Virus record (IMG/VR): IMGVR_UViG_3300035698_015044
Span: 1 to 23,625 of that record
Length of the DNA stretch: 23,625 bases
Origin: a virus
Reading direction: 5' to 3' (one strand)
The position numbers were made by a program, and so were the translations under genes. The notes beneath the pieces are model-generated. The model did not search any database, was not told the origin of the DNA, and saw only the letters and a program-made list of their open reading frames with translations. Positions 5,831 to 23,625 of the stretch are shown piece after piece. Each line of letters begins with the position of its first letter. Positions within the stretch are counted from its first letter, which is position 1.

Positions 5831-5989
5831 ATGCAACAACATCATATATTGTTATCAGCAAATGATATATTAGAAATAAAAAATTTATATAAAGTTGTGA
5901 CGTATGGAAAAATTTCTGAAATGTATAATATTCCATATAATACAGTTAGACATATTTTAAGAGGAGGGTATGATTGGTTATGCGTTTAA
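5831..5989 (+). CDS. Micro-protein with helix-turn-helix look
   Basis: A 52-residue frame with ATG at 5831 and TAA at 5987-5989. The segment YGKISEMYNIPYNTVRHILR followed by GGYDW matches the pattern of small HTH modules found at the end of homing endonucleases (G-x-I-x-x-hydrophobic-x-IP-x-x-TV-x-x-I-x-x-G-x-x-W). It overlaps the uvsW start by 10 bases. It could be a remnant DNA-recognition module of a lost homing endonuclease or a tiny repressor. Real expression is not certain. Confidence 0.45.
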   Translation: MQQHHILLSANDILEIKNLYKVVTYGKISEMYNIPYNTVRHILRGGYDWLCV

Positions 5990-8789: not shown

Positions 8790-8795
8790 ATGCTT

Positions 8796-8811
8796 GAATA
8801 TATAAAATAAA
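8796..8811 (+). promoter_or_regulatory. Late-promoter-like motif GAATATATAAAATAAA
   Basis: One of four near-identical copies on the + strand (8796, 11852, 12861, 22192). It contains a TATAAAA core like the T4 late promoter TATAAATA and lies 10 bases upstream of the 8822 gene, directly after a terminator. Being so close to the ATG, the transcript would have a very short leader. Confidence 0.6.
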
Positions 8812-8821
8812 TTATCATACT

Positions 8822-10639
8822 ATGGGTAAAATTAAAGAAAAAATTCATGAACTTGCCGATTTAGTTCAAGATATGATAAATGATGGTGTACATGATAATG
8901 AAATAGATTCTTATATTGAAGCACAAGTATCTCCTGAAGAATTTAAATTTTATCATGGTCATAAAGATTTAATATTTTATATATTAAGAAATATGCCTGA
9001 ATCAAAAAATAATAAGAAAAATATGAAAAAAATAAATGAAAAGTTAGCTGGAAAAAGAGAAAAACAAGAGCGTGATGCGAATGATGATGCGAAAGATATG
9101 GACGAATCTGTAAATGAAGGAAGATATTCGCAATCTGAAGTAGAACCCAGGGATGATTTAAAAGCAAATTTTAGAAGTTATGAAGAATCTGAAAATACAA
9201 TAGAAGATGCAGAACAATTATTTGATATACTTACGAATAGACATCCAAATGAAGATAGTAATTATCTTCAAAACTTAGCATATGATTGGTGTGGTGTAGA
9301 AATTCAGGGTGATTTTGATTATGATACTCGAGATAAAGAAGGGATTGACGATGAAGAATGGACTGATCCAGCAGGCGGATCACATCATGGAGATGAAGAT
9401 GATCCAGCTAGACAATACGAATCACAAAAATCTAAATATGTTAAAACTTCTATAAACGAAGAATTTCCAGAAGATGGAGATGACTTTGGATTGGGAGATC
9501 TTGAATATGGCGTAAGTCAAGATAAAGATGAAGAAACAGATGACAGTGAAGAAGATGATGGAGATGAATTAGCAGATTTTGAATGGGAAGTTGGAAGTTA
9601 TATCAGTAAAATTGTTAAAGATTATGATGCTGATAATTTAGGAGATGCTTTAGGTGATAATATGGCGCTAATACAACGATGTATGCAATCAGGCGTAAGC
9701 CCAGAAGAATGTGCCAAACAACTATTAACTAATGAAGAATTTTTAGAAGACATAGGAGCATTAAATGAAGCATATAGCGATAAATTAAAGTCTCATACTA
9801 AAATTCTTTCAGAACATAAAACAAAAAAAATAAACGAAATGAGAGAAGATGATGCACCAACAGCAGAAGAGGTTTTGAATAATAAACCTGAATTAAAAGC
9901 AGAATATGAAGATTGGTTATATAGAGCGATAGTTAAAATTGCTATAGATGTTAAACGTGGCGATGATGTTAATGATGCTATTTTTAATTATGCTGATGTA
10001 AAGGGTTGGTTTGAAAGAAAAACTCCAAAAGAAACAAAAATATATCAACAACGCTTTGTAAATCTTATAGGTGTTATGGAAGAACTTGGATTTGAATTAA
10101 ATGATGATATGTGGAGTGTTATACACAATGAAGACAATCTCGTTAATGAATCAGAATATATTATGCCTCTTCTTGGCGAAAAAAATCTAAATGAAGCGAA
10201 GAAAAATTGGTACTATAAACCAGCTCCTTGGGCTATAGGTGCTGCAAATTCTGAAAAGAGAAAGTTCCTTAAAATTCATCCTGATGCAAAAGTGACTATT
10301 TCAGGAAAAGATGGGTTTGTAAGAGTTAATGGAAGAATAGCTTATGATATTTCGGCATCCATGGGAAATAGAGGAGATAGAAATCCACAAAGTAAATTAG
10401 AAGATGCATATCAAGTATCGCTTTCTGAATCACAAAAATCTGACTTTATAATGAAATCATTAGAAGAATCTTTATCATCAGGGGATTATAGAGCTATGGA
10501 AGGCGCTATTGAATTAGAATTTTCAGAGGATGACGGAAATATAAAAGCTACACGTGAACAACAATATAACTTTTTAATGAGTCAAGGATTCAAAAAAGAA
10601 AAAATAGAGGAATTTTTAGCAGAATGGTTTGAAGAATAA
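8822..10639 (+). CDS. Acidic late protein with multiple LNE-type triplets, putative processed head protein
   Basis: 605 residues, no family recognised. A Lys/Glu-rich N-terminus (KIKEKIHELADLVQ), long acidic stretches (for example DEETDDSEEDDGDELAD, about 236-252), and separable segments such as EYEDWLYRAIVKIAIDVKRG (about 360-380) and KNWYYKPAPWAIGAANSEKR (about 460-480). Six [V/I/L]-N-E triplets end at residues 99, 213, 316, 339, 443 and 458, several followed by small residues (NE|G, NE|A, NE|S, NE|A), which resembles T4 gp21 prohead-protease sites. They would cut the protein into about seven pieces. Its position behind the first late promoter supports a virion role. This is inference; no enzyme motif is visible. 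Confidence 0.7.
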   Translation: MGKIKEKIHELADLVQDMINDGVHDNEIDSYIEAQVSPEEFKFYHGHKDLIFYILRNMPESKNNKKNMKKINEKLAGKREKQERDANDDAKDMDESVNEGRYSQSEVEPRDDLKANFRSYEESENTIEDAEQLFDILTNRHPNEDSNYLQNLAYDWCGVEIQGDFDYDTRDKEGIDDEEWTDPAGGSHHGDEDDPARQYESQKSKYVKTSINEEFPEDGDDFGLGDLEYGVSQDKDEETDDSEEDDGDELADFEWEVGSYISKIVKDYDADNLGDALGDNMALIQRCMQSGVSPEECAKQLLTNEEFLEDIGALNEAYSDKLKSHTKILSEHKTKKINEMREDDAPTAEEVLNNKPELKAEYEDWLYRAIVKIAIDVKRGDDVNDAIFNYADVKGWFERKTPKETKIYQQRFVNLIGVMEELGFELNDDMWSVIHNEDNLVNESEYIMPLLGEKNLNEAKKNWYYKPAPWAIGAANSEKRKFLKIHPDAKVTISGKDGFVRVNGRIAYDISASMGNRGDRNPQSKLEDAYQVSLSESQKSDFIMKSLEESLSSGDYRAMEGAIELEFSEDDGNIKATREQQYNFLMSQGFKKEKIEEFLAEWFEE

Positions 10640-10660
10640 AAATAACAGATAAAAAGATAA

Positions 10661-10687
10661 AAAAGGGAGTCAAATTGACTCCCTTTT
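10661..10687. terminator. Bidirectional terminator between convergent genes
   Basis: A perfect 13-bp inverted repeat: AAAAGGGAGTCAA (10661-10673) and TTGACTCCCTTTT (10675-10687). A-run and T-run on both sides let it act in both directions, for the 8822 gene (+) and the exported-protein gene (-). Confidence 0.85.
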
Positions 10688-10692
10688 GATTG

Positions 10693-11637
10693 TTATCTTC
10701 TTCGACTTGATGAACTTCCTGAAGATGATGAACTTCCTGAACTTCTGCTTACTCCCCTAGATCCACTAGAAAATGAGCTTCTATTTTGTGCAGGTGCTGA
10801 GTAACTTCTGCTTTGTGTAGGTGCTATATTTCTTCTTGGTGCTATAACTCTCGTTTTTGTTTGTGTTTGTATATTTGTTCTTGTCTGAATATTTCTTGTT
10901 TGCGTTTGTACTTTTGCATTATTGTATAAAGGTTTTGTAGGTGTCCTTGGTTGATTATAAGAAGGGACATATGATCTGCTATTTAAATTCGTTGATTTAT
11001 TTTGAGGCATAACTCTTCTAGTATCTTGAGGTCTACTTACAGCTTGTGTTGCAGGTTGAACTCTTCGATTATACGTACTCGATAATATTGAAGTTCTTTC
11101 TCTTCGTCCATATTGTACGTTATTTCTATCATACGATGTGTAATTGTTTGAAACATAATAATTATTACTCCAATGATTCCAGTTATAGTGATAATTATAT
11201 CTACAAGAACTCCAGTAATTGTAACCAAAATAAAAATTATTATAATACCAAGGACTATAAAAACTCATATAAGGATTATACCCAAAATAAAAACTATTAT
11301 AATAAAATGGATCGTTATAATACCAATAGTTGAAACCAAAGTGATGAAATCTATTTATTCTTCCTGAATAAAAAAATGGGTCATCTTCATAATAATTTAC
11401 AATAATTTGAATTGACTTGACTTCTTCAGTTCGTTTAATTGTATCTTGTTTTTGATTATCTATAGAAGGTATAAAATATAAATCATCATATTCTGGTTTA
11501 ATTGTTTCTATAGGTCCTCTTCCTGCTTCAAGTTCTTTAAGTTCCCAATACTTTTCGTAATTGGATTTTTCTTCTTTTTGCCCAAATGTCGATAAAGACA
11601 AGAACAACATAATTAATAAAATAAGTAGTTTTTTCAT
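10693..11637 (-). CDS. Exported Tyr/Asn-rich and Ser/Arg-rich protein (moron-like)
   Basis: The only minus-strand gene in the window: 314 residues. Residues 1-19 form a clear signal peptide (MKKLLILLIMLFLSLSTFG, cut likely before Gln20), in the style of Bacteroidota exported proteins. No lipobox Cys, so not a lipoprotein. After a charged stretch (about 21-75) comes a Tyr/Asn/Phe/Trp-rich block (about 90-170), then an Arg/Gln/Thr-rich linker with repeated QTRTNIQTQTKTR units, and a terminal Ser/Gly tract (SRGVSRSSGSSSSSGSSSSRRR-like, about 293-314). No fold recognised. It has its own late-type promoter and terminator, which suggests an acquired moron acting in the host envelope: surface change, exclusion or lysis-related are possibilities. 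The signal peptide is the firm part; the role is open. Confidence 0.75.
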   Translation of the reverse strand: MKKLLILLIMLFLSLSTFGQKEEKSNYEKYWELKELEAGRGPIETIKPEYDDLYFIPSIDNQKQDTIKRTEEVKSIQIIVNYYEDDPFFYSGRINRFHHFGFNYWYYNDPFYYNSFYFGYNPYMSFYSPWYYNNFYFGYNYWSSCRYNYHYNWNHWSNNYYVSNNYTSYDRNNVQYGRRERTSILSSTYNRRVQPATQAVSRPQDTRRVMPQNKSTNLNSRSYVPSYNQPRTPTKPLYNNAKVQTQTRNIQTRTNIQTQTKTRVIAPRRNIAPTQSRSYSAPAQNRSSFSSGSRGVSRSSGSSSSSGSSSSRRR

Positions 11638-11652
11638 AGTTCATTGTTTTAG

Positions 11653-11668
11653 TTTAGTTTATATATAG
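11653..11668 (-). promoter_or_regulatory. Late-promoter-like motif on minus strand
   Basis: On the minus strand this reads CTATATATAAACTAAA, matching the + strand motif GAATATATAAAATAAA at most positions. It lies about 15 bases upstream of the exported-protein ATG (11637), the only minus-strand gene, so the motif follows gene direction. Confidence 0.5.
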
Positions 11669-11702
11669 TCTATACTTATAATACTATCTAAAACTGTGCA
11701 AC

Positions 11703-11758
11703 TTTTTGTTAATTTTTGTTAATAATGTTAAGAATTTGTTATTTAACAATTTTTTAAC
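11703..11758. promoter_or_regulatory. Cluster of phased GTTAA/TTAAC sites in the divergent intergenic region
   Basis: Between the divergent genes (11638-11876) GTTAA occurs at 11708, 11718 and 11727, GTTAT at 11738, and the complement TTAAC at 11743 and 11754, with steps of about 10-11 bases (one helical turn) over much of the cluster. The 18-base part at 11742-11759 differs by one base from 1947-1964 upstream of gene 32. This looks like a binding array for a regulator, though AT-richness makes chance matches likely. Confidence 0.35.
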
Positions 11759-11782
11759 AATAAAAACAGTCTTGAAAGACAA

Positions 11783-11798
11783 GAATATATAAATAAAG
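11783..11798 (+). promoter_or_regulatory. Second, weaker late-promoter-like motif
   Basis: GAATATATAAATAAAG, one A shorter in the core than the consensus. It lies 54 bases upstream of the better copy at 11852, so the 11877 gene may have two starts of transcription. Confidence 0.35.
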
Positions 11799-11851
11799 CA
11801 TAAGATTTTTGTATATTTTAATAAAATTTGCATAATGGTCTTATCTAACAT

Positions 11852-11867
11852 GAATATATAAAATAAA
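11852..11867 (+). promoter_or_regulatory. Late-promoter-like motif GAATATATAAAATAAA
   Basis: Identical to the copy at 8796 over all 16 bases and 9 bases upstream of the ATG at 11877. Confidence 0.6.
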
Positions 11868-11876
11868 ATCATAAAT

Positions 11877-12425
11877 ATGAGAAAATTTGGAGACTTATAC
11901 AAAGAAAAATTAAATGAATCTGAAGACCGTCAAGAAACAAAAGTTTTATCAGACTTCAGACAAATTTATAATGTGATGCTAGAACACTACGGACTTTCAT
12001 CTGTTCATGATTTGGATGATCCTTCACAGGTGTCATTCTTAACAGAACTTAATCATTATTGGAGTGAAGAAAAAGGATTAAGTGAAAAAGGAGAAAAATT
12101 TGTTGTTAAACGCTCAATGACTCTTAATGAAAACTCAACAACTGTTCAAAAGAAAAACTATCTTAAACTTAAAGCAACTTCTGTACTTAAAGAAACATTA
12201 AGACAATCTGATCTTAAATTCAAATTTTATAATATTATCGATGAAATATATAAACAAGTTAATGCGTCAAATCTTAATGAGACCTTATCACCTCAATCAA
12301 TCACTTTAATACTTGAAAGTGCTTTTAAAGAAGCTGGAGAAGAGTTTATAGCCAATGTGAACTACGAACTCAAAGAAAGTGTAAAACCTAAGAAGAAATT
12401 TGTAGTAAAAGTAAAAGCAAAATAA
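11877..12425 (+). CDS. Putative capsid-targeted internal protein
   Basis: 182 residues, function not recognised. The N-terminus MRKFGDLYKEKLNE|SEDR has the shape of a T4 capsid-targeting sequence: a short amphipathic basic helix ending in a L-x-E prohead-protease site (Glu14) followed by Ser. Two more LNE triplets end at residues 85 and 135. The remainder is helical and Lys/Glu-rich and ends in a basic tail (KPKKKFVVKVKAK), which could bind DNA in the head. It is first in a late unit with the 12437 gene, which starts 11 bases after its stop. Confidence 0.65.
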   Translation: MRKFGDLYKEKLNESEDRQETKVLSDFRQIYNVMLEHYGLSSVHDLDDPSQVSFLTELNHYWSEEKGLSEKGEKFVVKRSMTLNENSTTVQKKNYLKLKATSVLKETLRQSDLKFKFYNIIDEIYKQVNASNLNETLSPQSITLILESAFKEAGEEFIANVNYELKESVKPKKKFVVKVKAK

Positions 12426-12436
12426 AAACAAAAAAT

Positions 12437-12790
12437 ATGAAAGCAAAATTATTAAGAGAATCTTTAAATGAAGGATTCACCACAGAAGAAGGAAGAAACA
12501 TCGATAAAATTGCAAGTATGTTAGGTTATGATGATTTTCATGAATTTCTTGGTGATAATCCTGGATGTTATGAAGCTATAACAAAATGGATAGATGAATA
12601 TTTTTCAGATCAACTTGCAACAGAACAGTATGAACCAGAAGAACTTGAAAGACTAAATTTATATACAGCAGCTGAAAAGATTAGAGAAGATGAAGACGAT
12701 GAAGACGATGAAGACGATGATGAGGATAATAAACCACCTGCTAATATAAAACCACCCCCTAAATCACCTCCTAATATAAAATTAAATTAA
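12437..12790 (+). CDS. Putative capsid-targeted small protein with acidic repeat and proline tail
   Basis: 117 residues. MKAKLLRESLNE|GF is a leader/cleavage motif of the same kind as in 14160 and 14476. The mature part holds a compact domain (MLGYDDFHEFLGDNPGCYEA, about 31-50, then KWIDEYFSDQL), an Asp/Glu run from a 9-base DNA repeat, and a proline-rich tail (KPPPKSPPNIKLN). Small domains of this kind recur in late proteins of large phages as far as I recall, but I cannot name the family. It is followed by a terminator at 12832. Confidence 0.65.
   Translation: MKAKLLRESLNEGFTTEEGRNIDKIASMLGYDDFHEFLGDNPGCYEAITKWIDEYFSDQLATEQYEPEELERLNLYTAAEKIREDEDDEDDEDDDEDNKPPANIKPPPKSPPNIKLN
12689..12724 (+). 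repeat. 9-bp in-frame tandem repeat (GATGAAGAC)
   Basis: Three exact GATGAAGAC units (12689, 12698, 12707) and a fourth diverged unit (12716) encode the acidic Asp-Glu-Asp run of the 12437 protein. The number of units could vary by slippage without breaking the frame. Confidence 0.8.
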
Positions 12791-12831
12791 AAGGAGTTAT
12801 GAATACATAATTTTTTAAAGATAACTATTAT

Positions 12832-12860
12832 AAAAAAGAGCCAACAATGCTCTTTTTTTT
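12832..12860 (+). terminator. Rho-independent terminator
   Basis: GAGC (12838-12841) / GCTC (12849-12852), extended by the preceding A-run and following T-run to a longer stem, loop CAACAAT, then eight T's. The promoter motif at 12861 starts on the very next base. Confidence 0.8.
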
Positions 12861-12876
12861 GAATATATAAAATAAT
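12861..12876 (+). promoter_or_regulatory. Late-promoter-like motif
   Basis: GAATATATAAAATAAT, differing from the consensus only in the last base, directly abutting the terminator T-run. It serves the propeller gene at 12920 with a leader of about 40 bases, longer than at the other copies. Confidence 0.55.
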
Positions 12877-12919
12877 GTAAATAAATTTTGTTAAATTGAC
12901 AAAATGAATTCAAATATTT

Positions 12920-14134
12920 ATGAGAGAACAAAGTTTTTTTTCTTCACAAGAACATGGTACAGGATTTGCAAAAATTGGATTTGATCATACAAGAATAGCA
13001 GTTAGAACGATTATTGTTGATTCTTCAGATAAATTATTTATTGGCGGAAGTTTTGCAAATTATGGAGATACGTCTGCTGCAAGCATAATAAAACTTAATT
13101 CAGATGGAACTCAAGATAAATCGTTCAATGCAGGATCAGGTTTTAATGCAAACGTTCATGTAATAAAATTTAATCCATTTAATAAGGGAGAAATTTTTGT
13201 CGGAGGTGATTTTTCAACATATAATGATGTATCAGCATACCATTTAATAAAATTAAATTATGATGGAACACGAGACGCTTCTTTTACAGAAGGAATGGGT
13301 TATGGGATAGGTAATAAAAACACAACGGATGATGTAAGAGATATTGCATTTGATGCAAGCGGTAATATTTTCATAGTAGGAAATTTTCATAGTTTTAATA
13401 TTCCAACAGATACTGACACATATCATGAATATGCAATTAGATTATTACCTAATGGAAATTTAGATGAAAGTTTTGTTACGGGCGATGGGTTAGGATATTA
13501 TATACATCCTGGAACTTATAATTGGATTAATACTGTTTATATAGATCCAAGTGATAGTACAAGAAGCGTTTATATAGGAGGAAATTTTACGTGGTGGCAA
13601 GATTCATATAGTAAGAATTTAGCAAAATTAAACAGTGACGGAACATATAACGCAGCATTTGATGTTAGTTGGGGGTGGTTTTATGATGTTTTTCAGATTA
13701 AAAAAGATAAGCTGGGAAGATTAATTATTGGAGGGAGTAGTGATTATTGGGATAGTAGTTTACGCGAAATTGTAAACAGAAAAGGAATATCGGGGCTTGA
13801 TGCTTCAACTTCTTATACAGATTGGTCATTTGATGTAAGCACTGGAATGACTGGAAGTGTATATGGTTTAGTTGAAGATATAGATGGGTTTTTTGTAATA
13901 GGTACTTGTGGTAATTACAAAGGTATTTCGAGTGATTCTTATTTCTTAAACTTAGATTCTTCAGGTATAATAAATCCTAATTTTAAGTTTTTAAAATTAG
14001 CATTTGATGGGAGTTATCCAACGAGTCCAATAACTGCAGCAATTGATTCAAACCGAAATATCTATATAGGTGGGTGGTTTGAGACCTATAAAGGACAAAA
14101 TTGTTGCAAGATAGTAAAGTTAAATGAAAATTGA
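12920..14134 (+). CDS. Delta-60 repeat beta-propeller protein
   Basis: 404 residues made of about seven repeats, each with a GG-x-F-like strand (LFIGGSF, IFVGGDF, IFIVGNF, VYIGGNF, LIIGGSS, FFVIGTC, IYIGGWF) and most with a K/R-L-x-x-D/N-G-x-x-D-x-S/A-F strand (LNSDGTQDKSF, LNYDGTRDASF, LLPNGNLDESF, LNSDGTYNAAF). This is the delta-60 / DUF5122 propeller repeat; seven units would make a closed seven-bladed propeller. No signal peptide and no LNE leader, so it is probably not exported by Sec or head-targeted. A tail, fibre-associated or decoration role is plausible because such propellers mediate binding. The ATG at 12920 is the first in frame after a TGA at 12905; an ATG at 12904 is in another, short frame. 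Confidence 0.8.
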   Translation: MREQSFFSSQEHGTGFAKIGFDHTRIAVRTIIVDSSDKLFIGGSFANYGDTSAASIIKLNSDGTQDKSFNAGSGFNANVHVIKFNPFNKGEIFVGGDFSTYNDVSAYHLIKLNYDGTRDASFTEGMGYGIGNKNTTDDVRDIAFDASGNIFIVGNFHSFNIPTDTDTYHEYAIRLLPNGNLDESFVTGDGLGYYIHPGTYNWINTVYIDPSDSTRSVYIGGNFTWWQDSYSKNLAKLNSDGTYNAAFDVSWGWFYDVFQIKKDKLGRLIIGGSSDYWDSSLREIVNRKGISGLDASTSYTDWSFDVSTGMTGSVYGLVEDIDGFFVIGTCGNYKGISSDSYFLNLDSSGIINPNFKFLKLAFDGSYPTSPITAAIDSNRNIYIGGWFETYKGQNCCKIVKLNEN

Positions 14135-14144
14135 TATATACAAT

Positions 14145-14191
14145 AAATAAAGAATTACTATGAATATAAAACTTGTAAAAGAATCGTTAAA
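14145..14191 (+). repeat. 47-bp direct repeat, copy 1 (leader plus capsid-targeting start)
   Basis: Identical over 47 bases to 14461-14507. It covers the A-rich leader AATAAAGAATTACT, the start codon and the first ten to eleven codons (MNIKLVKESLN). The sequences then diverge completely. Confidence 0.85.
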
Positions 14192-14453
14192 CGAATCAGT
14201 ATTAAGATATTGTGCTACCTACTTAGCTAGTGATAACAAATGGTATTTAGAATTAGCTGATAGAGAACACGGAGAACGAGATGAAGCAAATACTTATGGT
14301 CCATTTAATTCTGAAGAAAAGGCTGAGGATTACTTAAACAATTTCTCTAATCCTGGAGGAGGAGATTTTGATGATTCGGGAGAGCAACCACCCCCAACTG
14401 AAAGTCCAAACGGAAGACCGGTTCAAAGACCAAGAATGGGAAGAAGATGGTAA
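14160..14453 (+). CDS. Putative capsid-targeted small protein 1 of the duplicated-leader pair
   Basis: 97 residues. MNIKLVKESLNE|S is a predicted capsid-targeting leader with a cut after Glu12. The mature part has a small mixed domain (ASDNKWYLELAD...YGPFNSEEKAEDYL, about 23-60) followed by a Gly/Pro-rich tail ending in RPRMGRRW. The WYLELA/YGPF/AEDYL pattern looks like a recurring small phage domain, but I cannot name it. It has a weak promoter-like stretch (GATATATACAATAAATAAAG) just before it. Confidence 0.65.
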   Translation: MNIKLVKESLNESVLRYCATYLASDNKWYLELADREHGERDEANTYGPFNSEEKAEDYLNNFSNPGGGDFDDSGEQPPPTESPNGRPVQRPRMGRRW

Positions 14454-14460
14454 AAATATA

Positions 14461-14507
14461 AAATAAAGAATTACTATGAATATAAAACTTGTAAAAGAAT
14501 CGTTAAA
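14461..14507 (+). repeat. 47-bp direct repeat, copy 2
   Basis: Second copy of the leader/start cassette, offset 316 bases from the first. AAAATATAAAATAAA at 14453 onward just upstream resembles the late promoter core. Confidence 0.85.
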
Positions 14508-14697
14508 TGAATTTTGGGATCCTGAAAGTGATGAGCTTTCAAAAGCTAAAATGGAAGCTAGAAAAATTAGTAAAGAAGAAGGATGCGTACAACATGTAAA
14601 TGAAATACGTCCTGGAGTATACAAAATAGAAGACTGGTACGATTCTGTACAAACAGTCGCAAGTTACGAAAATGGTGAAGGCTTTGGATCATTTTAA
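14476..14697 (+). CDS. Putative capsid-targeted small protein 2 of the duplicated-leader pair
   Basis: 73 residues. The same first 12 residues as the 14160 protein (MNIKLVKESLNE) but an unrelated body: EARKISKEEGCVQHVNEIRP (about 26-45) and YKIEDWYDSVQTVASYENGE (about 48-68). The body looks like a compact alpha/beta domain. Shared leader and different cargo is what a cassette-like targeting signal would give. The next gene starts 16 bases downstream. Confidence 0.65.
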   Translation: MNIKLVKESLNEFWDPESDELSKAKMEARKISKEEGCVQHVNEIRPGVYKIEDWYDSVQTVASYENGEGFGSF

Positions 14698-14713
14698 AAT
14701 TAAATACTAAAAT

Positions 14714-16609
14714 ATGTTAAACACGTTAGCTCAAGTCCAAGAAAAAAAAGGACCTAAGTATGTAAACGATCTTTTAAATGAAGAAGTAGTTATTACTGAA
14801 AAAATCGACACGTTTCGTTTAATCTTTGAAAAGAAAGACGGAGAAATAAAGTTTTATAAAAAAGACAACACGCTTATTACATTAATAGATCGTACATTAT
14901 CTGATATATATGAAGAAGCGATATGCGAGATTCCTATTATCACTCAAGATGCAGATATTCCTGAAGGTTTATTTTTTGGAATATATTACACTCCTGTTGA
15001 AAGACCTTTAAGAATTCCTTATTCGAAACTCCCAAAATATATTTTAACAGATGTCACAAAAAGAAAAGGTAATAAAATTACTGAATGCTTTGATTATAAT
15101 GTAGTTAAAGATTGGTCAGCAGTTCTTTGTATGGGAAGGCCTCCTGTTTTATTTGAAGGAAAATTAACATCAGAACAAAAGAAATTACTTATTGCATATG
15201 ATACAAAAGAATATGAAGGAGAAGAAATGACATTCTCTAAAATGATTGAAAATTCTTTTAAAGCATCATATTCACAAGAAGATATAATTGAAGGAATAGT
15301 CATTAAATCAGGCAGCAAATTAACACAAATTATTTCATATGAATTTGACTTACTTAACGAAGCATATGAAAATAAAAATGAGTCTCGAGATTTATATGAT
15401 ATTTTAATTTCTGATTTAACTCAATTTTTAACTCGTTATAATGTTCCATTATTAGAAGCAGCAACAAAAGATGAGCTATACATCAATATAGTTTCAGATA
15501 TATTCAACAGATATTCTCAAAGTAAAGGTGCGGAATTTAAATTAGATTGGCATTACCTATCTCCTCCTAAATTTGGATATGCAGGCAAATTAAATAAAAA
15601 ATTCATTACAAACGAAGTATCAAAAAAATGGATTGAAAAAGCTCCAATTTATGAAGCTTTATTTAAAGTTATTTTATCATCATTGCGAAAACCTAAAAAA
15701 TCTTATGGTCTTTTGACTGAAGCGATAGTAAAGAAATTCAATTCTTTAGTTTATCTTATAAATGCTTTAGTTTCCTTGAACGAAGAAACTGAAGGTGCTT
15801 GTAAATGTTTAACACAAAATTATGTTGATAATGGCAATGGTACTACTACATGTAAAGTCTGTAAAAAAACTTGGAATCACAAAAAATATGCAGAAGAAGG
15901 AAATAATAAAATAATAAATGAGTCTCGTTCGGAGAATATTGTGGTTGATGCATTTAAAAAAAGAAATCCTACAGATGTTGATAACATGAGAGTTATTGCA
16001 TCAATTCAGAAAGCATTTGAACCAAAAGTTAGAGATATTGCAGGAGGTGCTAAGTCTTGTGCTGTATATCTTACAACTTATGAGCCATTTACCCAAACAC
16101 AAATGGATAATGTGCATCGTATAAATGAAATGTGGAATTGCCCAGTGCTTTTAGCTGGTGTGAGTAATGAACATGAAATTGAAGGAGATAATTTCTACCC
16201 GTCAGATGATTTAATTAGAGGACAAATGACAGCATTAATGAATTCAGATAATAGTTTAATCCCATCTTTTATGCTTTTAGATTCATGGAACTTAACTGAG
16301 ATATTTGAATATTGTAGACCTCATTTTGAACCAATTGTTATAATAACAGATAAAGGGAAAAAATCAGAAATGACACTTCAGTTATTTTTTGAAGAAGAAG
16401 TAATGGGTGGAAGACTTGCATGTGATCCTATATTTAACATAGGAGAACTTGATAATGAAGATAGACTTACAGCATTTCGTGCTATAGAAGACAATAATTC
16501 TTCTCTATTTCTTGAAATGACACCTACACCTATACACAATTTATTTGATAAAGTATTTTCTGAATATAGATACTGGAGCGGACAATTGTTAACCAATAAA
16601 CGAAGATAA
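14714..16609 (+). CDS. Ligase-type nucleotidyltransferase / zinc finger / cytidylyltransferase-like multidomain late protein
   Basis: 631 residues. Domain 1 (about 24-216): covalent nucleotidyltransferase, motif I EKIDTFR (Lys30, Asp32, Arg35), LFFGIYY (motif III-like) and EGIVIK (motif IV, Glu193-Lys198). This is the RNA/DNA-ligase fold, expected to form a lysine-AMP. A middle helical region follows (217-357). Then a zinc finger (Cys363, Cys365, Cys380, Cys383). Domain 3 (about 440-631): AVYLTTYEPFTQTQMDNVHR is reminiscent of the nucleotidylyltransferase (NMNAT/CTP-transferase) start, but the HxGH motif is degenerate. LNE/INE triplets end at residues 23, 216, 357 and 403, that is, before domain 1, after it, before the zinc finger and after it. 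This suggests a precursor cut at domain boundaries by the prohead protease. The alternative is an ordinary repair enzyme with chance triplets. Confidence 0.65.
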   Translation: MLNTLAQVQEKKGPKYVNDLLNEEVVITEKIDTFRLIFEKKDGEIKFYKKDNTLITLIDRTLSDIYEEAICEIPIITQDADIPEGLFFGIYYTPVERPLRIPYSKLPKYILTDVTKRKGNKITECFDYNVVKDWSAVLCMGRPPVLFEGKLTSEQKKLLIAYDTKEYEGEEMTFSKMIENSFKASYSQEDIIEGIVIKSGSKLTQIISYEFDLLNEAYENKNESRDLYDILISDLTQFLTRYNVPLLEAATKDELYINIVSDIFNRYSQSKGAEFKLDWHYLSPPKFGYAGKLNKKFITNEVSKKWIEKAPIYEALFKVILSSLRKPKKSYGLLTEAIVKKFNSLVYLINALVSLNEETEGACKCLTQNYVDNGNGTTTCKVCKKTWNHKKYAEEGNNKIINESRSENIVVDAFKKRNPTDVDNMRVIASIQKAFEPKVRDIAGGAKSCAVYLTTYEPFTQTQMDNVHRINEMWNCPVLLAGVSNEHEIEGDNFYPSDDLIRGQMTALMNSDNSLIPSFMLLDSWNLTEIFEYCRPHFEPIVIITDKGKKSEMTLQLFFEEEVMGGRLACDPIFNIGELDNEDRLTAFRAIEDNNSSLFLEMTPTPIHNLFDKVFSEYRYWSGQLLTNKRR

Positions 16610-16630
16610 ATAGAATAAAAATCAATAATT

Positions 16631-17170
16631 ATGATGAAAAGTAAAAATGATAAAATGTTTAAACGATTACTTTCAGCTAGATCAGACGAAGAAAGAATTG
16701 ATGTATTAAAAAAATATTACCCTGATGTAATTTTAAGTGATGATTTTTATGATATAGAAAGTCAATATGTAGATCCAGCAAATGATATAATAATTGAATT
16801 ATTAGAAAAGGGATTTTTAAAATTTAAAGATCCAGATGAACCTTATGAAATAATATATGCAGATCAAAATTTAAAAGAAAATCAAAATGAAAATAAAATG
16901 AAAATTATGACACAATTAGTACCAGAATCATTAGAACAATTGTTCGAAGCAAAAGATGCACAAGCAGCAAAAATTCAAGCAAAAGCTGAAAAAACAAAAC
17001 CTGTAAAAGTTGATCAATCAAAAGCTGAAAAATCAAAACAAGCAATTAAAGCTTTAGAAAAGCAATTGATTGATGCTAAAAAACCAGGAGCATTTAAAAC
17101 AACAAGAGAAAAGAATGCAAAAATCGAAGCTTTGAATAAAAAGATTAAAGCTTGGAAAGCAAAGAAATAA
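16631..17170 (+). CDS. Two-part late protein with Lys/Ala-rich coiled-coil tail
   Basis: 179 residues, function unknown. Residues 1-85 are a small acidic domain (LSARSDEERIDVLKKYYPDV). Residues 90-106 (MKIMTQLVPESLEQLFE) look like an internal copy of the capsid-targeting leader, ending LFE|A (Glu106). The rest is a Lys/Ala/Gln-rich helix, probably a coiled coil or DNA-binding tail (AEKSKQAIKALEKQLIDAKK). An internal start at Met90 (16898) would give a stand-alone leader plus basic tail, as in T4-type core or internal proteins. Both readings are possible. Confidence 0.55.
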   Translation: MMKSKNDKMFKRLLSARSDEERIDVLKKYYPDVILSDDFYDIESQYVDPANDIIIELLEKGFLKFKDPDEPYEIIYADQNLKENQNENKMKIMTQLVPESLEQLFEAKDAQAAKIQAKAEKTKPVKVDQSKAEKSKQAIKALEKQLIDAKKPGAFKTTREKNAKIEALNKKIKAWKAKK

Positions 17171-17185
17171 AATAAATTTCAAAAT

Positions 17186-18859
17186 ATGAAAAAATATCTT
17201 TCAAAGTCTTTGAACGAGGAAGATCAAATTTTTAGTGATGCGCATGCGAAAGAGTTATTACAATTACAAGTGAATTATAATAAATCACTTCAAGACTTAA
17301 ATAACAAATTGGCAAAACAAAAATCTGATTTGTCAGTTAAGTATATGAATCAAGCAAAACAAGCGCCTGCTACTCAGAATACGGCACAACAGCAACAGCA
17401 ACAGCCCGCAAAACAGACTGGTACAGTTAATAATGCTGGTCAGCCTCTTAATGCAGATGGATCTCCTGCGACAGAGTCTTATGTAGATATTTTACATGTA
17501 AAAGAAATTGACTTGAATGAAGCTCCCAATTATGGTAGACTAGATATGCGAAACTGGTATCAAAAACCAGAAAACAGAGCAGGATATATTGAGCCAAGAG
17601 CACCAAGAAAAAAGAGATTGACTCCAAAGCAAAAAACACGTTTGGATGATATTTATTATGAAATTAAAGACCTTGAGCAAGAAATAAAAAGAACAATGGA
17701 GAAATTTAAATCTCCGACATTTCAAGGTGTAAGGGGTGAAATGGAAGATTTTTTTGGTCAAGTAGGACCACAAGGTGTAGATATTCTTAATTCTGGAGGA
17801 TATTCAAACGATAAAGAAAAAATTGCCGCATTAACAGCAGCTGGAATTCCAGATGCTAAAGAAATATTAGGAAATTATTATTATTATTATCCTGAATTTA
17901 ATACAAGTTTAGATGATGATAGAAAAGAAGCTGAAAAATATGCAGAAAAACTCCAAAAAGAAATTAAAGCGTTAGAACTTGAAGAAGCAAAATTACAAGC
18001 GTTAGATGAATCATTAGACGAAGGTTTCTCTGATTTATATGCTTGGATTAATCAAATAAAATTAGAATTACAAAAGATTTTTGACGGAATTGACAACTTT
18101 CATATAAATAAATTGTTCATTAAATATGAAGACGAATTAGAACATCTGTATGAAAAGGGCATAAATCCTCATAAAGCAACTATTTTAATTTTTAAAAATA
18201 ACAATATTAAAGATGAATCGTTCAAAAATCATTTTAAAGAAAAGTTTTTGAACGAAAGTATGTATGATCTTGTAGATGCAGATTCGGGAGAAATTCAAAG
18301 TCTTAAAGACTATATGGATGCTGAAAATATTTCTTATTCAGAAGATGAAGATGGTACTTCTATAACATTTGATGAAAATGAATTAGATGCTGAATGGAAA
18401 TCAGTTTTAGGAGATATTGGTTTAACTAAATCCGAGCCGGAAAATGATGATATTTTAAGTGTTGAAGACGATGATGTGGTTGATACACGAACAAAATCAG
18501 ATGGCGTCGGCGACGAAAACATAGATATTACAACAAAAGATCAACAAATCGATGAAGATAAGGTCTTCTATGTAAAAATATCAGATGAAGCTGAAGAATT
18601 TACAGGAAAGATTTATAAACTTTTTGATGATGGAGATTGGAGAGCAGAGATGATAAAAGGTGATAATGATACTTTTGAAAAGCTTAATTATAACCCGTCA
18701 TACGATGAATTTGATATTATCGCTTTTCTCCGTGAAAATTATGATGATGCCGAAATACTATCTGAAGAAGAGTTTAATGATTTAATTGAAGATAAAAAAG
18801 AAATAAAAGAATCATTTTATAATATACCTACATTAGAAATTTTTTTAAAAACAAATTGA
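17186..18859 (+). CDS. Large putative capsid-targeted internal protein with coiled coils
   Basis: 557 residues. MKKYLSKSLNE|E is a leader of the late-protein type (Glu11). More sites: LNE|A at 112, LDE|G at 279, LNE|S at 357. Between them lie a coiled coil (about 15-50), a Gln-rich linker (about 60-75), a basic segment PRKKRLTPKQKTR (about 140-152), a second coiled coil (about 150-275) and an acidic C-terminal third (about 358-557). Only structural features are recognisable. It ends EIFLKTN just before the HNH gene at 18885, so its original C-terminus may have been altered by that insertion. Confidence 0.65.
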   Translation: MKKYLSKSLNEEDQIFSDAHAKELLQLQVNYNKSLQDLNNKLAKQKSDLSVKYMNQAKQAPATQNTAQQQQQQPAKQTGTVNNAGQPLNADGSPATESYVDILHVKEIDLNEAPNYGRLDMRNWYQKPENRAGYIEPRAPRKKRLTPKQKTRLDDIYYEIKDLEQEIKRTMEKFKSPTFQGVRGEMEDFFGQVGPQGVDILNSGGYSNDKEKIAALTAAGIPDAKEILGNYYYYYPEFNTSLDDDRKEAEKYAEKLQKEIKALELEEAKLQALDESLDEGFSDLYAWINQIKLELQKIFDGIDNFHINKLFIKYEDELEHLYEKGINPHKATILIFKNNNIKDESFKNHFKEKFLNESMYDLVDADSGEIQSLKDYMDAENISYSEDEDGTSITFDENELDAEWKSVLGDIGLTKSEPENDDILSVEDDDVVDTRTKSDGVGDENIDITTKDQQIDEDKVFYVKISDEAEEFTGKIYKLFDDGDWRAEMIKGDNDTFEKLNYNPSYDEFDIIAFLRENYDDAEILSEEEFNDLIEDKKEIKESFYNIPTLEIFLKTN

Positions 18860-18884
18860 TTGTTAATGAATATAATATGTAAAA

Positions 18885-19580
18885 ATGAATCATCAAAAAA
18901 TATATGATAGTATAATTGAAAAGGCTAAATTAGAAAATCGAATTAAGTTAAGAAAAAATAATGTTGATTATATTTATTATGAAAAACACCATATCATTCC
19001 AAGATGTCTTAATGGAACAGATGAAAAAGGAAATTTAGTTTTATTACTTGCGCGAGAACATTTTATATGCCATAAATTGTTAACATACATTTATCCTCAT
19101 AATAAAAAGATAGCATGTGCATATCATTATATGACACTTAGTAAAAGATACGGCTATATAATTTCAGGAAGAGACTATGCATATGCTATAGAATTACATA
19201 GATCTATTCCAATATCAAAAGAAACAAGTGAAAAATTAAGTAAAGCTGCAAAAAGTCAAATACCTCCAATGACAGGAAAACACCACACAGAAGAATCAAA
19301 AGAAAAAAATCGTAAGTCTCATATAGGAAAACACCACACAGAAGAAAGAATAAAATCATACAAAGAAGAAAGAAAAGGAGAAGGAAATGGGATGTTTGGA
19401 AAAGGTTCATTGATATCAGGAGAAAAAAATGGAATGTTTGGAAAATCTGTTTACGATATATGGATAGAAAAATATGGCAAAGAAATTGCTGATATTAAAC
19501 AAAAGAATACATCAGAAAAGCGAAGAAAATCAATGATAGGAAAAAATAAAGGAAAACTGGAGTATACAAAGTTTGGATAG
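18885..19580 (+). CDS. HNH homing endonuclease with NUMOD3 repeats (copy 1, frameshifted)
   Basis: 231 residues before the stop. The HNH nuclease core is YEKHHIIPRCLNG...NLVLLLAREHFICHKLL (about 26-63). NUMOD3-type DNA-binding units follow (GKHHTEESKEKNRKSHIG, then GKHHTEERIKSY, then GEGNGMFGKGSLISGEKNGMF). The frame breaks at about 19556: adding one A to the run in GGAAAACTGG restores TGVYKVWIEKYGIEEANK. Freestanding phage HNH genes of this kind spread by cutting cognate DNA. It shares an N-terminus and layout with the gene at 22224 and is clearly its paralog. Confidence 0.75.
   Translation: MNHQKIYDSIIEKAKLENRIKLRKNNVDYIYYEKHHIIPRCLNGTDEKGNLVLLLAREHFICHKLLTYIYPHNKKIACAYHYMTLSKRYGYIISGRDYAYAIELHRSIPISKETSEKLSKAAKSQIPPMTGKHHTEESKEKNRKSHIGKHHTEERIKSYKEERKGEGNGMFGKGSLISGEKNGMFGKSVYDIWIEKYGKEIADIKQKNTSEKRRKSMIGKNKGKLEYTKFG
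19274..19346 (+). repeat. 22-bp direct repeat within HNH gene
   Basis: AGGAAAACACCACACAGAAGAA-type units at 19274 and 19325 (51 bases, 17 codons apart) encode two GKHHTEE NUMOD3 motifs. The near-perfect DNA identity suggests a recent internal duplication or conversion. Confidence 0.7.
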
Positions 19581-19780
19581 AAAAATATGGAATTGAAGAA
19601 GCTAATAAAAGAGAAAACCGAAAAGAAAAAAGAAGTGGAGTATCATGGAATAAGGGAAAGAAAAATGTTTATTCTAAAAATACAATAGAAAAAAATAAGT
19701 GAATCCGCAAAAAACTTATAGAATGCGAATACTGTCATAAACGATGGCACGGAAATAAATGTAAACAAAAATTATTTTAA
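19562..19780 (+). pseudogene. Broken 3' end of HNH copy 1
   Basis: In a shifted frame the DNA still encodes VYKVWIEKYGIEEANKREN (19562 onward), NKGKKNVYSK and, after a TGA at 19700-19702, a zinc-finger-like end LIECEYCHKRWHGNKC (about 19715-19762). At least one frameshift and an in-frame stop (or two further one-base shifts around the A-runs at 19689-19695 and 19709-19714) separate it from the HNH core. It is a decayed C-terminus or an error-prone stretch of assembly. Confidence 0.6.
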
Positions 19781-19784
19781 TAAA

Positions 19785-20108
19785 ATGAAATTAGTTAAAG
19801 AATATATTAATGAGAAATGTCATATTGAGCATCCAGCTGAAGAACCTGTAGAAGAAGCTCTTAGAGGAAATGGAAACAAAAAACTTAAAAATCAAAAAGA
19901 AATGTTAGAAGATGATGAAGTTGAAGATCTTGATGAAAGTACAAAATTAAATCCTAATCTTGGAGGCAAAATTGATTCTAAAACGCATAAACTTTTAAGA
20001 AAAGATCAAGATAAACCTGATGATGATATATTTGATAGATATGCTAAAGAAGTTACGGAGCACCACATCGAAACACTTGATGAATTTATTAATAAGATCG
20101 TGAAATAG
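19785..20108 (+). CDS. Putative capsid-targeted small acidic protein
   Basis: 107 residues. MKLVKEYINE|K is close to the 10-residue T4 capsid-targeting form (MKTYQEFIAE). The rest is acidic and charged (HPAEEPVEEAL, LEDDEVEDLDES), with no recognised fold and a helical end (TEHHIETLDEFINKIVK). It follows HNH copy 1, whose broken end runs up to its start. Confidence 0.6.
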   Translation: MKLVKEYINEKCHIEHPAEEPVEEALRGNGNKKLKNQKEMLEDDEVEDLDESTKLNPNLGGKIDSKTHKLLRKDQDKPDDDIFDRYAKEVTEHHIETLDEFINKIVK

Positions 20109-20146
20109 ATGTTACAAATAATGCGCAAAGTGGTTACACTGTTAAT

Positions 20147-20170
20147 GAATATATACTTTATAAAATAAAA
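20147..20170 (+). promoter_or_regulatory. Variant late-promoter-like region
   Basis: GAATATATACTTTATAAAATAAAA contains both halves of the late motif (GAATATATA and TATAAAATAAA), separated by an extra 7-8 bases. It sits 15 bases before the 20186 ATG. Confidence 0.4.
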
Positions 20171-20185
20171 ATTAATGTTACAATT

Positions 20186-22138
20186 ATGAAAAACAATTAT
20201 GTTCCGGGGACTCTAACTGAGTTTTTAGGTGAATCAAAATCAATAACTTTGAAACGTAAATACGGAGAAAGACCTACTATAGTGGTAGGTGCTACAGCCC
20301 CATTACGTAATCAAGTATTATCTTTTGTTGCAGAAAATGCAAGAGTATCTAAAATTGATCTTAAACAATATATTATTGGTTTAAAAGAAGGAGGAGCTAC
20401 TGTGGCTTCAGCAAATATGTTTATTAGAAGAAATGCTAAATATTTCATAGCTGAAAATAAAAGTGGCATAACATATTTTAAATTATCTCAAATAGGTCAA
20501 AGATTAGTTAATCAATTCCAGCCAGCTCAAGAAACAGATGTATCAGAATCTTTATCCGCTAGATATCTTAAAAGAAAAGCAGTTAACGAAGCATTCTCGT
20601 CAGTAACGGTTCCATTTAATGGAATTGAAGATGAATTATCAAATCTTGAAAGAGTTGGAATAAAAGCATCGAATGTTAGGATTGGCTCAGGTGGCGGAAA
20701 CACTGAAGTTACATTAACTGGTGATGAAGATGCAATTCGAAACTATTTAGCTGATTTGTGGGAGATGAATCCTAATGATGAAGAAATAGACGAATTGTTT
20801 GAAAGTAAAAAAGTTAACGAAGTATTTGAAGATGAAATAGAAGCAAATGATTTTACAGGTGAAGAAGAATCAGAAGGTCCAGCTGAAGAAGTTGAATTTA
20901 CAGATCAAGAAGATCCTGAATCTAAATCTGATAGTGATGATACTTTTGAATATGAAGAAGATGATGAAAAAATCACTCTTACATATTATAAACATGGCGG
21001 TGTTGAATCTGGTGAAGAAATTGCTGAACCTGAAGAAGACAAAGAAGGATTTGATTTTAAAGACAAAGGACGTCCTGGATTAAATGATGTAGATGAAGCA
21101 TTAGAAGCTCGTAAAGAGAAAATGAAAATGATCATCGAAAATATAAAAGCAAAAAGAACTGCATCATTAAATGAAAATTCTACTTTATCTTATGCGCATG
21201 CTTATCATGTTGCTATGGATCAAAAAGATTATGACGAACTTGGAAAAAATATAAGTAGAAATGAATTTAAAGAGTATTTTAATATTCCTAAAGATGCAGA
21301 TGAAGATCCTGATTATAAAAGAAATCCAAAATTTGATCTTAAAGGATTAAGTAAAATAAATGAAAGTGAAGAAGATGATGAGTTAAAAGATGAAGATCTT
21401 GAAAATCTTGGTGGAGATGATGATACACCCGCCGAAGAAACTGGCGATGAAACTGCAACAACTCTTGATGGCGAAGAAGATAATATGGAAAAAGTTGAAA
21501 TTACAGAGTTTATTATTACAGTAGAAGATGTAGACGCAGCAATTGAAGAACTTCAAGAACTTGGTGTTAGTGCTGAAAGAGTTCCTATTGAAGTTCCGGA
21601 ACCTGAAGTTCCAGCAGCTGAAGATACAGAACAACCTGTAGAAGATCAAGTTCCACCGGATGATACAACTAAAGAAGAAAAGTTAGATTTAACTCCTCAG
21701 GAAGAAGTTAGAGAATCTCTAAAAGCATTTACACTCAATCTTCTTAATGAAGATGTAACAGGAGATGAAGAACTTGATTTAGGTTCAAGTGATGAACTTG
21801 GATTAGGAGATCAAGGTGAAGAGGCAGCTGAATTAGATGCACCACCTGAAGAAGAAGTTCTTGACCCAGTTACAGAATTTGAAGAAAACAAAATTAAAGT
21901 TAAAGCAGAAGATTGGCCAGTTCTTAAGCCTTGGCTAGAAGAAAAGGGTGCAGATGTAGCTGAAATGTTTGGAGGCGAAATTGAAATGGAAGAAGTTTCT
22001 GATGATGAAATAGCTTCTGAAGAGCCAAAAGAACCAATTAAAGATGGCGATATTGATTTTTCTGGAATCTCAGATAAAGAACAGACTAAATTAAAAGATG
22101 ATGACGAAGATGATAAAAACGACAAAGATAAAGAATAA
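20186..22138 (+). CDS. Large acidic late protein, putative prohead core/internal precursor
   Basis: 650 residues, no family recognised with confidence. The N-terminus MKNNYVPGTLTEFLGE|S has a leader-like end (Glu16). Five internal [V/L/I]NE triplets end at residues 135, 212, 330, 393 and 522. Residues 18-130 form a basic winged-helix-like domain (TIVVGATAPLRNQVLSFVAE...SQIGQRLVNQF). Very acidic tracts follow, as does VEDVDAAIEELQELGVSAER (about 453-472) and a repeat-like unit IKVKAEDWPVLKPWLEEKGA (about 570-590). The Asp/Lys tail (KDDDEDDKNDKDKE) closes it. The strong acidity and many protease-type sites resemble a T4-type scaffold/core protein that is digested during maturation. A terminator follows at 22161. 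Confidence 0.65.
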   Translation: MKNNYVPGTLTEFLGESKSITLKRKYGERPTIVVGATAPLRNQVLSFVAENARVSKIDLKQYIIGLKEGGATVASANMFIRRNAKYFIAENKSGITYFKLSQIGQRLVNQFQPAQETDVSESLSARYLKRKAVNEAFSSVTVPFNGIEDELSNLERVGIKASNVRIGSGGGNTEVTLTGDEDAIRNYLADLWEMNPNDEEIDELFESKKVNEVFEDEIEANDFTGEEESEGPAEEVEFTDQEDPESKSDSDDTFEYEEDDEKITLTYYKHGGVESGEEIAEPEEDKEGFDFKDKGRPGLNDVDEALEARKEKMKMIIENIKAKRTASLNENSTLSYAHAYHVAMDQKDYDELGKNISRNEFKEYFNIPKDADEDPDYKRNPKFDLKGLSKINESEEDDELKDEDLENLGGDDDTPAEETGDETATTLDGEEDNMEKVEITEFIITVEDVDAAIEELQELGVSAERVPIEVPEPEVPAAEDTEQPVEDQVPPDDTTKEEKLDLTPQEEVRESLKAFTLNLLNEDVTGDEELDLGSSDELGLGDQGEEAAELDAPPEEEVLDPVTEFEENKIKVKAEDWPVLKPWLEEKGADVAEMFGGEIEMEEVSDDEIASEEPKEPIKDGDIDFSGISDKEQTKLKDDDEDDKNDKDKE

Positions 22139-22918: not shown

Positions 22919-23474
22919 TAAAACAGTTCATAAACGTGCGTATTGTTTTAATCTTGACGACACTTTAATACAAACAGATGCTAGAGTTCATGTTCATAGA
23001 AACGGAGCACATTATAAATCATTAACGCCTAAAGAATATAATTCCTATGTCAGAAAGCCTGTTGATCAATTAGATTTTTCTGAATTTAATGATCCTGAAA
23101 TGATAATTAATGCAAAAAAATATAAGATGTGGCCAGTACTAAAGAATGTTAATAGCGCTATCAAAAGGCGTATGACTACTTCAGACATATTTATCTTAAC
23201 TGCGCGATCAACTCCTCTTAAGCATGCTATATATGAGCTGCTTAAACAGAACGGTATAAATATTGAGATTGATAATGTAATTACAATGGGCGATAACAAA
23301 GGCGATATAAATGTAGCTAGCGAAAAATACAAGATACTTAAAAAATTAGCAGATAAATATGATGAGATCTTATTTTTTGATGATAATCCTGAAACTATTC
23401 AATTGGCAAAAACTATAAAAGGTATTAGAACTCGATTAGTAGAAGGAATAAATAAAATAAAATTCAATAAATGA
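22911..23474 (+). CDS. HAD-superfamily-like protein with Asp-to-Asn at the nucleophile position
   Basis: 187 residues. The HAD-fold motifs are visible: motif I as CFNLDDTL (residues 12-19), motif II ILTARS (95-100, Thr97), a lysine region ASEKYK (about 136-141) and motif IV FFDDNPE (145-151). In motif I the first Asp of D-x-D is replaced by Asn14 (codon AAT), while the second Asp16 is kept. The first Asp is the nucleophile in HAD phosphatases, so phosphatase chemistry should be lost or weak. The family in T4-like phages is usually hypothetical; a role in nucleotide or nucleic-acid 3'-phosphate handling is possible. The start at ATG 22911 is chosen over a TTG at 22899 because of the 9-bp repeat and A-rich spacing. 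Its TGA overlaps the next ATG. Confidence 0.75.
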   Translation: MRAKTVHKRAYCFNLDDTLIQTDARVHVHRNGAHYKSLTPKEYNSYVRKPVDQLDFSEFNDPEMIINAKKYKMWPVLKNVNSAIKRRMTTSDIFILTARSTPLKHAIYELLKQNGINIEIDNVITMGDNKGDINVASEKYKILKKLADKYDEILFFDDNPETIQLAKTIKGIRTRLVEGINKIKFNK

Positions 23475-23625
23475 AAAAACTTGTAAGAGAAGATTTGGGT
23501 GGCGTTAGTGCTCCAATGAGCACTATAGTAAATACACCAGGTATGGGTAATGCTGTTCCTGCTTCAGGAAGTGGAATCGGTTCAGGAGATAATTGGGGAA
23601 ATACTATCAACGGAAAACCTTACAC
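23471..23625 (+). CDS. Partial late protein at window end
   Basis: A frame open to the window end (51 codons visible) starting MKKLVREDLGG, with a Gly/Ser/Pro-rich continuation (STIVNTPGMGNAVPASGSG). The start resembles the KLV(K/R)E leaders of the other late proteins, but the LNE triplet is replaced by DLGG. The GMGNAVPA segment resembles N-termini I recall from T4-like phage structural proteins; this cannot be confirmed here. It overlaps the HAD stop (ATGA). Confidence 0.55.
   Translation, partial: MKKLVREDLGGVSAPMSTIVNTPGMGNAVPASGSGIGSGDNWGNTINGKPY

Follow-up and report, generated by a model that had tools for sequence, protein, structure and literature searches.

Why should a run of otherwise unrelated viral proteins begin with the same kind of short, basic leader, ending in Leu-Asn-Glu or a close variant of it? 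The question is raised by a 23,625-base virus contig (IMG/VR record IMGVR_UViG_3300035698_015044, positions 1-23,625), and this whole stretch is called the window in what follows. The left part of the window carries T4-like replication genes, including one for a gp32-like protein (PF08804, E 4e-13), and from position 8822 on it holds about 12 late genes of mostly unknown type, all of them on the + strand except the one at 10693-11637. It is among the products of these late genes that the leaders are found. The answer that we favor, with a probability of roughly 85%, is that the leaders are T4-type capsid-targeting sequences which would be cut by a gp21-type protease, in a much expanded form.

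Leaders and triplets in the late proteins

The frequency of the triplet was compared between 11 late proteins (3602 residues) and 12 early proteins (2775 residues), using composition-preserving shuffles of each set for the expected numbers. The late proteins contain 29 copies of [VIL]NE, against 4.7 +/- 2.1 expected, and the early proteins contain 3, against 3.1 expected. An earlier note on this DNA had counted, by eye, about 25 in roughly 3200 late residues and two or three in the replication proteins; both counts hold up, and the test of late against early proteins that it proposed shows enrichment in the late set only. The late excess persists when the first 30 residues are omitted (22 against 4.0 expected). 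The same residues in permuted order occur just one to five times per tripeptide in the late proteins, and no enrichment was seen for the other [VIL]xE tripeptides tested. The concentration at the N-terminus is equally clear: [IL]NE falls inside the first 18 residues of 6 of the 11 late proteins, where 0.23 would be expected, a number reached by none of 20,000 shuffles, and [VIL]NE occurs there in 0 of the 12 early proteins. Allowing [VIL]GE as well brings the late proteins with N-terminal leader sites to seven, with 0.23-0.40 expected by shuffle. The residue following [VIL]NE in late proteins is most commonly Ser or Ala (11/29).

The leaders of the window are basic and 10-16 residues long, and all are encoded on the + strand. 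The 182-residue protein of gene 11877 starts with MRKFGDLYKEKLNE (11877..11918), with a predicted cut after Glu14. The orthologous leaders read YKEKVNE/A in a 405-kb relative (G001, described below) and in L008, YKEKVSE/A in L006 and YKQKINE/A in L201, where the slash marks the predicted cut; the site is lost in the relative G002 (YKEKQTK), and a second site at residue 83 is kept in the orthologs. No relatives of this protein were confirmed in viral_contigs. A 117-residue protein begins with MKAKLLRESLNE (12437..12472), and two small proteins of 97 and 73 residues share the leader MNIKLVKESLNE (14160..14195 and 14476..14511). The DNA of this pair is near-identical across the leader and the bases immediately upstream, and by this likeness the leader DNA is a recent copy. 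An AlphaFold model of the 97-residue protein (pLDDT 57) was too poor for use. Gene 17186 encodes a 557-residue protein with the leader MKKYLSKSLNE/ (17186..17218) and more sites at residues 110 and 355; those at residues 9 and 355 are kept, with HLNE and RINE in the G001 and G002 orthologs. The leader of the 107-residue protein of gene 19785, MKLVKEYINE/ (19785..19814), has the same shape as the G001 leaders MKLVREHINE/ and MKIVKEYINE/. Finally, the 650-residue acidic protein of gene 20186 (28% Asp plus Glu) has the leader MKNNYVPGTLTEFLGE, which ends in LGE (20186..20233). Its site at residue 14 is kept as EYLGE/S in G001 and AYLNE/S in G002, so that P3 Leu and P1 Glu are conserved across relatives and P2 is free. 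Leaders were absent from the late genes 8822, 12920 and 16631. Beyond the leaders, no similarity could be detected between the late proteins, as had been supposed.

Two side observations belong here. The gene without a leader at 12920-14134 encodes a DUF5122 beta-propeller protein and lies amid leader-bearing genes; this propeller was almost the only match when Pfam and PHROGs were searched with the late proteins. A leader is also possible on the first open reading frame (ORF) of the window (1-978, DUF6267), whose start is missing; nucleotidyltransferase-like and DUF6267 proteins in L007 (6235-8417) and L016 bear leaders such as FKTWLNE/ and FKQWLNE/.

The earlier note had listed eight leaders. 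The triplets that it listed are present at all of the genes named, and seven of these can be kept as leaders; the eighth, in a 631-residue ligase-like protein (14714..16609, + strand), is probably not a leader. Its LNE (residues 21-23) directly precedes what is probably a ligase motif I (TEKIDTxR, identified by eye), and its conservation is only partial: the orthologs read LLNE, FLKE and FLSD. A further site in this protein, LLNEAYE at residue 214, falls in a part of a conserved enzyme-like domain that does not vary at all, and probably is no cut site either. The notion that every [VIL]NE is a cut site was accordingly rejected, as some of them fall in conserved folds. A different picture is given by the INE at residues 401-403, in a linker between two conserved parts: it is kept as LNEARSEN and INEVRSDN, and the [IL]NE stays while the length of the linker varies by more than 30 residues. 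A PDB search with this protein gave nothing, and an AlphaFold model of it made with three sequences (pLDDT 34) was too poor for use.

Internal sites are numerous in other late proteins too. The 605-residue acidic protein of gene 8822 (8822..10639, + strand) has seven internal [VIL]NE sites and is a candidate core protein or polyprotein. In the protein of gene 20186, the stretch between SLNE at residue 328 and KINE at residue 391 (21176..21364, + strand) forms a module; residues 328-393 match, at 65% identity, a separate 86-residue ORF of L001 which has its own leader, IKLKDILLE/. Conservation of the sites among orthologs is mixed overall. These many internal sites point to the processing of polyproteins or core proteins, which goes beyond what the earlier note had proposed.

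The protease, the capsid and the leader family in relatives

A megablast search of the window against phage records gave no match. Its gp32-like protein led to the 405-kb contig G001, which is syntenic with the window in reverse; the G001 genes were taken from a simple ORF caller run on the whole contig, with approximate start codons. G001 has a gp21-type (S77) protease (PF03420, E 2e-17, with 61 bits where the cut-off is 27), whose frame of 781 residues runs on into a scaffold-like part. This protease/scaffold fusion has 10 copies of [VIL]NE against 1.3 expected, and the gp23-type major capsid protein has 3 against 0.2 expected. One of the capsid copies, ALNE/AAMGG, stands at the end of the N-terminal delta region, where T4 gp23 has FLTE/AEIGG; MAFFT left these two sites unaligned, the T4 delta region being longer, and the match is one of position plus eight residues. 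Other gp23-type proteins have [LI]xE at the same place (KLNE/DAF in Lak-B5, ELYE/NAY in LR756500 and QIHE/NVG in LR756504). The PF03420 protease is found in Lak-B5 and LR756500 as well, and the match in LR756504 is below the family cut-off. The search for a prohead protease and its probable capsid substrate which the earlier note had called for thus succeeded in a relative, with the same triplet in both, and not on the contig of the window itself.

Late proteins that do not belong to the head behave differently. The sheath has 0 copies of [VIL]NE (0.6 expected), the terminase has 1, and two tail-like proteins of 5501 and 4984 residues have 1 (2.2 expected) and 3 (2.4 expected), respectively. 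Because none of these shows an excess, the motif follows the head proteins rather than late proteins in general, which is what one would expect of sites for a prohead protease. Together, the late-only triplet, the protease and capsid of G001 and the lack of an excess in tail proteins support the suggestion that T4-like leaders mark many head-packaged proteins. It is worth adding that G001 has a second, short gp23-like protein of 308 residues (L050:18804-19730, or G001 278804-279730; Gp23 family E 3e-22), distant from the main capsid gene.

The relatives have a far larger leader family, as judged by sequence matches, than is visible in the window. In G001 it takes the form of an amplified element, [ILV]-x-E/KFxEESDPIxDMGIG. 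A six-frame scan put the number of copies at 85, spread over 62 open frames; in 50 cases the distance from the first Met is 25 residues or less. A profile search of the called genes found 50 N-terminal and 27 internal copies. The 75 modules that follow the element fall into 45 groups without detectable similarity. The sole common known domain behind it is the ankyrin repeat, seen in at least six G001 proteins (L041, L044, L045, L049), which may be regarded as candidate injected binding proteins. In 74 copies anchored by demanding the E and the F, P1 is Glu in 74/74, P3 is Ile, Val or Leu in 74/74, and P2 is variable (Asn in 49). In an unconstrained alignment of 52 G001 proteins, Glu10 is the sole invariant column, and P3 is I, L, V or M in 134/134 further copies from other contigs. 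A search for the G001 leader among phage isolates and bacterial genomes found none.

The internal copies deserve attention. Two to five elements, spaced 88-143 residues apart, are found in 15 G001 frames, which suggests polyproteins cut inside the head. These internal copies keep the cut site and have lost the basic N-terminal part (KLVRE), as expected if one targeting leader were followed by inner sites that release the modules.

Other lineages use different words for what appears to be the same thing. In G002 (260 kb), leaders of the forms M[KR]AKF[IV][NY]E/ and KLV..E/ stand on at least 21 proteins, and DILKPKSxEE often comes next; one G002 leader, MKLVKESLNE/, is of the window type. In LR756500 there are 16 or more leaders of the kind MKYIKEYEEFILE/A, which is close to the MKTYQEFIAE/A of T4 IPII and IPIII, and a weaker N-terminal excess is seen in Lak-B5 and G003. 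The wording of the element is thus lineage-specific, while the predicted cut site is constant. We found no published account of amplified leaders in huge phages or of the EHINEKF sequence, within an incomplete coverage of the literature.

What the leaders would do

We infer cutting, packaging, ejection and cargo functions from features that can be read off the sequences themselves, namely an enrichment that is confined to late and head proteins, the leaders common to unrelated proteins, and the motif in the protease, scaffold and capsid of a relative. The leaders would carry late proteins into the prohead core, where the gp21-type (S77) protease would cut after the Glu of [I/L/V]-x-E, which in the window is mostly [I/L/V]-N-E. 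The proteins, now without leaders, would remain beside the DNA in the head and probably be ejected into the host. Those with several sites would be either core proteins, fragmented as T4 gp22 is, or polyproteins from which cargo of one domain each is released.

Several observations weigh against this scheme. Neither the S77 protease nor the capsid gene is on the 23.6-kb contig; both are seen in relatives. Strong conservation extends over the 15 residues that follow the G001 site. The T4 leaders show nothing of the kind, and cutting alone leaves this conservation unexplained; protease recognition, a DNA-binding or ejection tag, and a docking motif are the candidates. The sites of the 8822 protein are not common to its L007 ortholog, with most unkept between orthologs, and the same is true of several internal sites of the 20186 protein; such losses would suit either redundant sites or shredded core proteins. 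Lastly, some [VIL]NE triplets, such as that at residue 214 of the 14714 protein, lie in conserved folded parts where cutting is unlikely.

Among the alternatives, the one that survives best concerns the acidic multi-site proteins of genes 8822, 20186 and 17186. These may be prohead core or scaffold proteins degraded like T4 gp22, gp67 and gp68, leaving only some of the small leader-bearing proteins as cargo. We regard this as a serious but somewhat less than even possibility. Their content of Asp plus Glu (22-28%) and many internal sites are what such proteins would have: T4 gp22 has eight [LI]xE[AGSV] in 269 residues, and the core and scaffold proteins of T4 are cut at several sites into several fragments (PMC9026906). 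However, a scaffold is already fused to the protease in G001, the N-terminal domain of the 20186 protein is well conserved, and its module that is elsewhere a separate ORF with its own leader is a better fit to cargo.

It is unlikely that the leader is instead an uncut docking or assembly tag, with the Glu and the residues that follow as a binding motif. This would account well for the KFxEESDPIxDMGIG stretch of G001, which is more conserved than the residues before the site and is also found inside proteins. It sits poorly with the same triplet in the capsid protein and the protease/scaffold, with an invariant P1 Glu and aliphatic P3 around a free P2, as for gp21, and with internal copies that retain the site and not the basic KLVRE part. 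Moreover, G002, LR756500 and the window keep the site without the KF element. Even less probable is a mobile DNA cassette or translation-start enhancer with no role for the protein. The near-identity of the 14160 and 14476 genes in leader and upstream DNA is what one would expect of such a cassette, but agreement in synonymous codons among the G001 copies is 0.66 against 0.636 by chance (saturated). Synonymous codons at the chance level mean that selection on the protein maintains the element, rather than fresh copying of DNA, and 27 of the copies are internal to proteins. Chance or composition, by which late proteins would simply be rich in N, E and L, has a negligible probability: the late proteins are indeed acidic, but the composition-preserving shuffles and the permuted tripeptides exclude it.

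Returning to targeting and cutting, a wider form of this reading seems to us about as probable as its opposite: a T4-like clade of huge phages would have cut-and-pack cassettes, with each virion carrying 40-60 different proteins that act on the host upon infection. In this form of the reading, each cassette would place a lineage-specific leader, a cut site and sometimes the 15-residue tag before one of dozens of small domains, and these domains would come singly or in polyproteins split within the head. T4 injects few internal proteins, and its three Ips, which were known just by their leader, proved to be anti-restriction proteins. If the leader marks at least 50 genes in huge phages, sequence alone would list candidate injected proteins, most of them without a known relative, and thus provide a large pool of candidate host-takeover and anti-defence proteins. 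For proteomics the prediction is that N-termini lie directly after Glu. Such leaders might also be used to steer passenger proteins into large heads.

Neighboring features and known systems

A late-promoter-like motif accompanies many of these genes. TGAATATATAAAATAA is found exactly before genes 8822 (8795..8810), 11877 (11851..11866), 12920 (12860..12875) and 22224, with weaker copies before 14160 (14131..14146, 3 mismatches), 14476 (14451..14466, 2 mismatches) and 23471, those with coordinates being on the + strand; in the form GAATATATAAAATAAA the motif starts at 8795, 11851, 12860 and 22191. G001 has 47 near-exact copies, where a dinucleotide Markov model predicts about none, and 44 of the 47 lie within 150 bases of a start codon, often 0-20 bases upstream. 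The genes that follow include those for the portal and a large tail protein, several leader-bearing genes and homing endonucleases. The motif may be a late promoter.

At the end of the contig a truncated protein start, MKKLVRE/DLGGVSAPMSTIVNTPGMGNAVPAS..GSGDNWGN (23471..23623, + strand), is similar to the N-arm that the G001 major capsid protein is predicted to have when mature (GGVSVPYATLYNVPGVGTAVPAS..GSGDKW). The corresponding protein of relatives is small and basic and contains GSGDNWGN and KRKKK stretches; in one case (L059, G001 145622-146773) leader modules are fused in front of it. The gene at 10693-11637, on the strand opposite to the surrounding late genes, encodes a secreted-looking protein (MKKLLILLIMLFLSLSTFGQ) whose counterparts occupy the same place, likewise on the opposite strand, in L006, L007, L008, G001, L016 and L201; the style of its signal peptide suggests a host among the Bacteroidota. 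At 5974-8774, a UvsW-like helicase gene consists of two ORFs carrying intein halves, the first with matches to Intein_splicing and Hint. Between them sits an ORF for a TnsA-like endonuclease (7004-7834), which gives the arrangement the look of a split intein accompanied by a free-standing homing endonuclease. Two homing endonucleases of the NUMOD3 type, related to each other (18885-19580 and 22224-22721), lie among the late genes, with about 12 relatives in G001.

How, then, does this family compare with known systems? The closest is that of T4. T4 gp21 has the specificity L/I-X-E, packaging needs no more than the first 10 residues of IPIII, and within the leader, targeting depends mainly on residues 4 and 7, and processing on residues 8 and 10; in IPIII, replacement of the Glu by Asp is reported to abolish cutting (PMC9026906). 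The leader is the sole common part of T4 Ip1-3, each of which inhibits different type IV restriction enzymes; T4 has three internal proteins and Alt, and at least 10 internal proteins are reported across its relatives (PMC12373910). As with IPI, IPII, IPIII and Alt, a short basic leader ending in L/I-x-E is found here on unrelated late proteins, an S77 protease is present, here in relatives, and capsid and scaffold proteins carry the same motif, here as predicted sites in relatives; the LR756500 leaders even resemble those of T4 residue by residue. Unlike in T4, about 50-60 genes of one genome (G001) carry the element, some lineages have a constant stretch behind the site, repeats are polyprotein-like, and Asn is strongly preferred at P2.

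In phiKZ and SPN3US, a gp21-related protease cuts after Glu to remove the propeptides of many head proteins, and there are paralogs with identical N-termini (PMC5694885). Many head proteins with cuts after Glu, predicted ones here, are a feature shared with these inner-body or ejection proteins. An assignment to the phiKZ type was nevertheless rejected: the sites there are S/A-x-E and most propeptides exceed 100 residues, whereas here the sites are [ILV]-x-E, with I/L/V at P3, and the leaders are mostly 7-16 residues long. A third comparison is with the polyvalent proteins of phages and conjugative elements (PMC5512222), which are likewise multidomain and thought to enter the host with the DNA. 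Those proteins have large shared enzyme and ArdC-type domains, while the domains here are small, at about 90-140 residues, and mostly unknown, and each of them is preceded by a predicted cut site.

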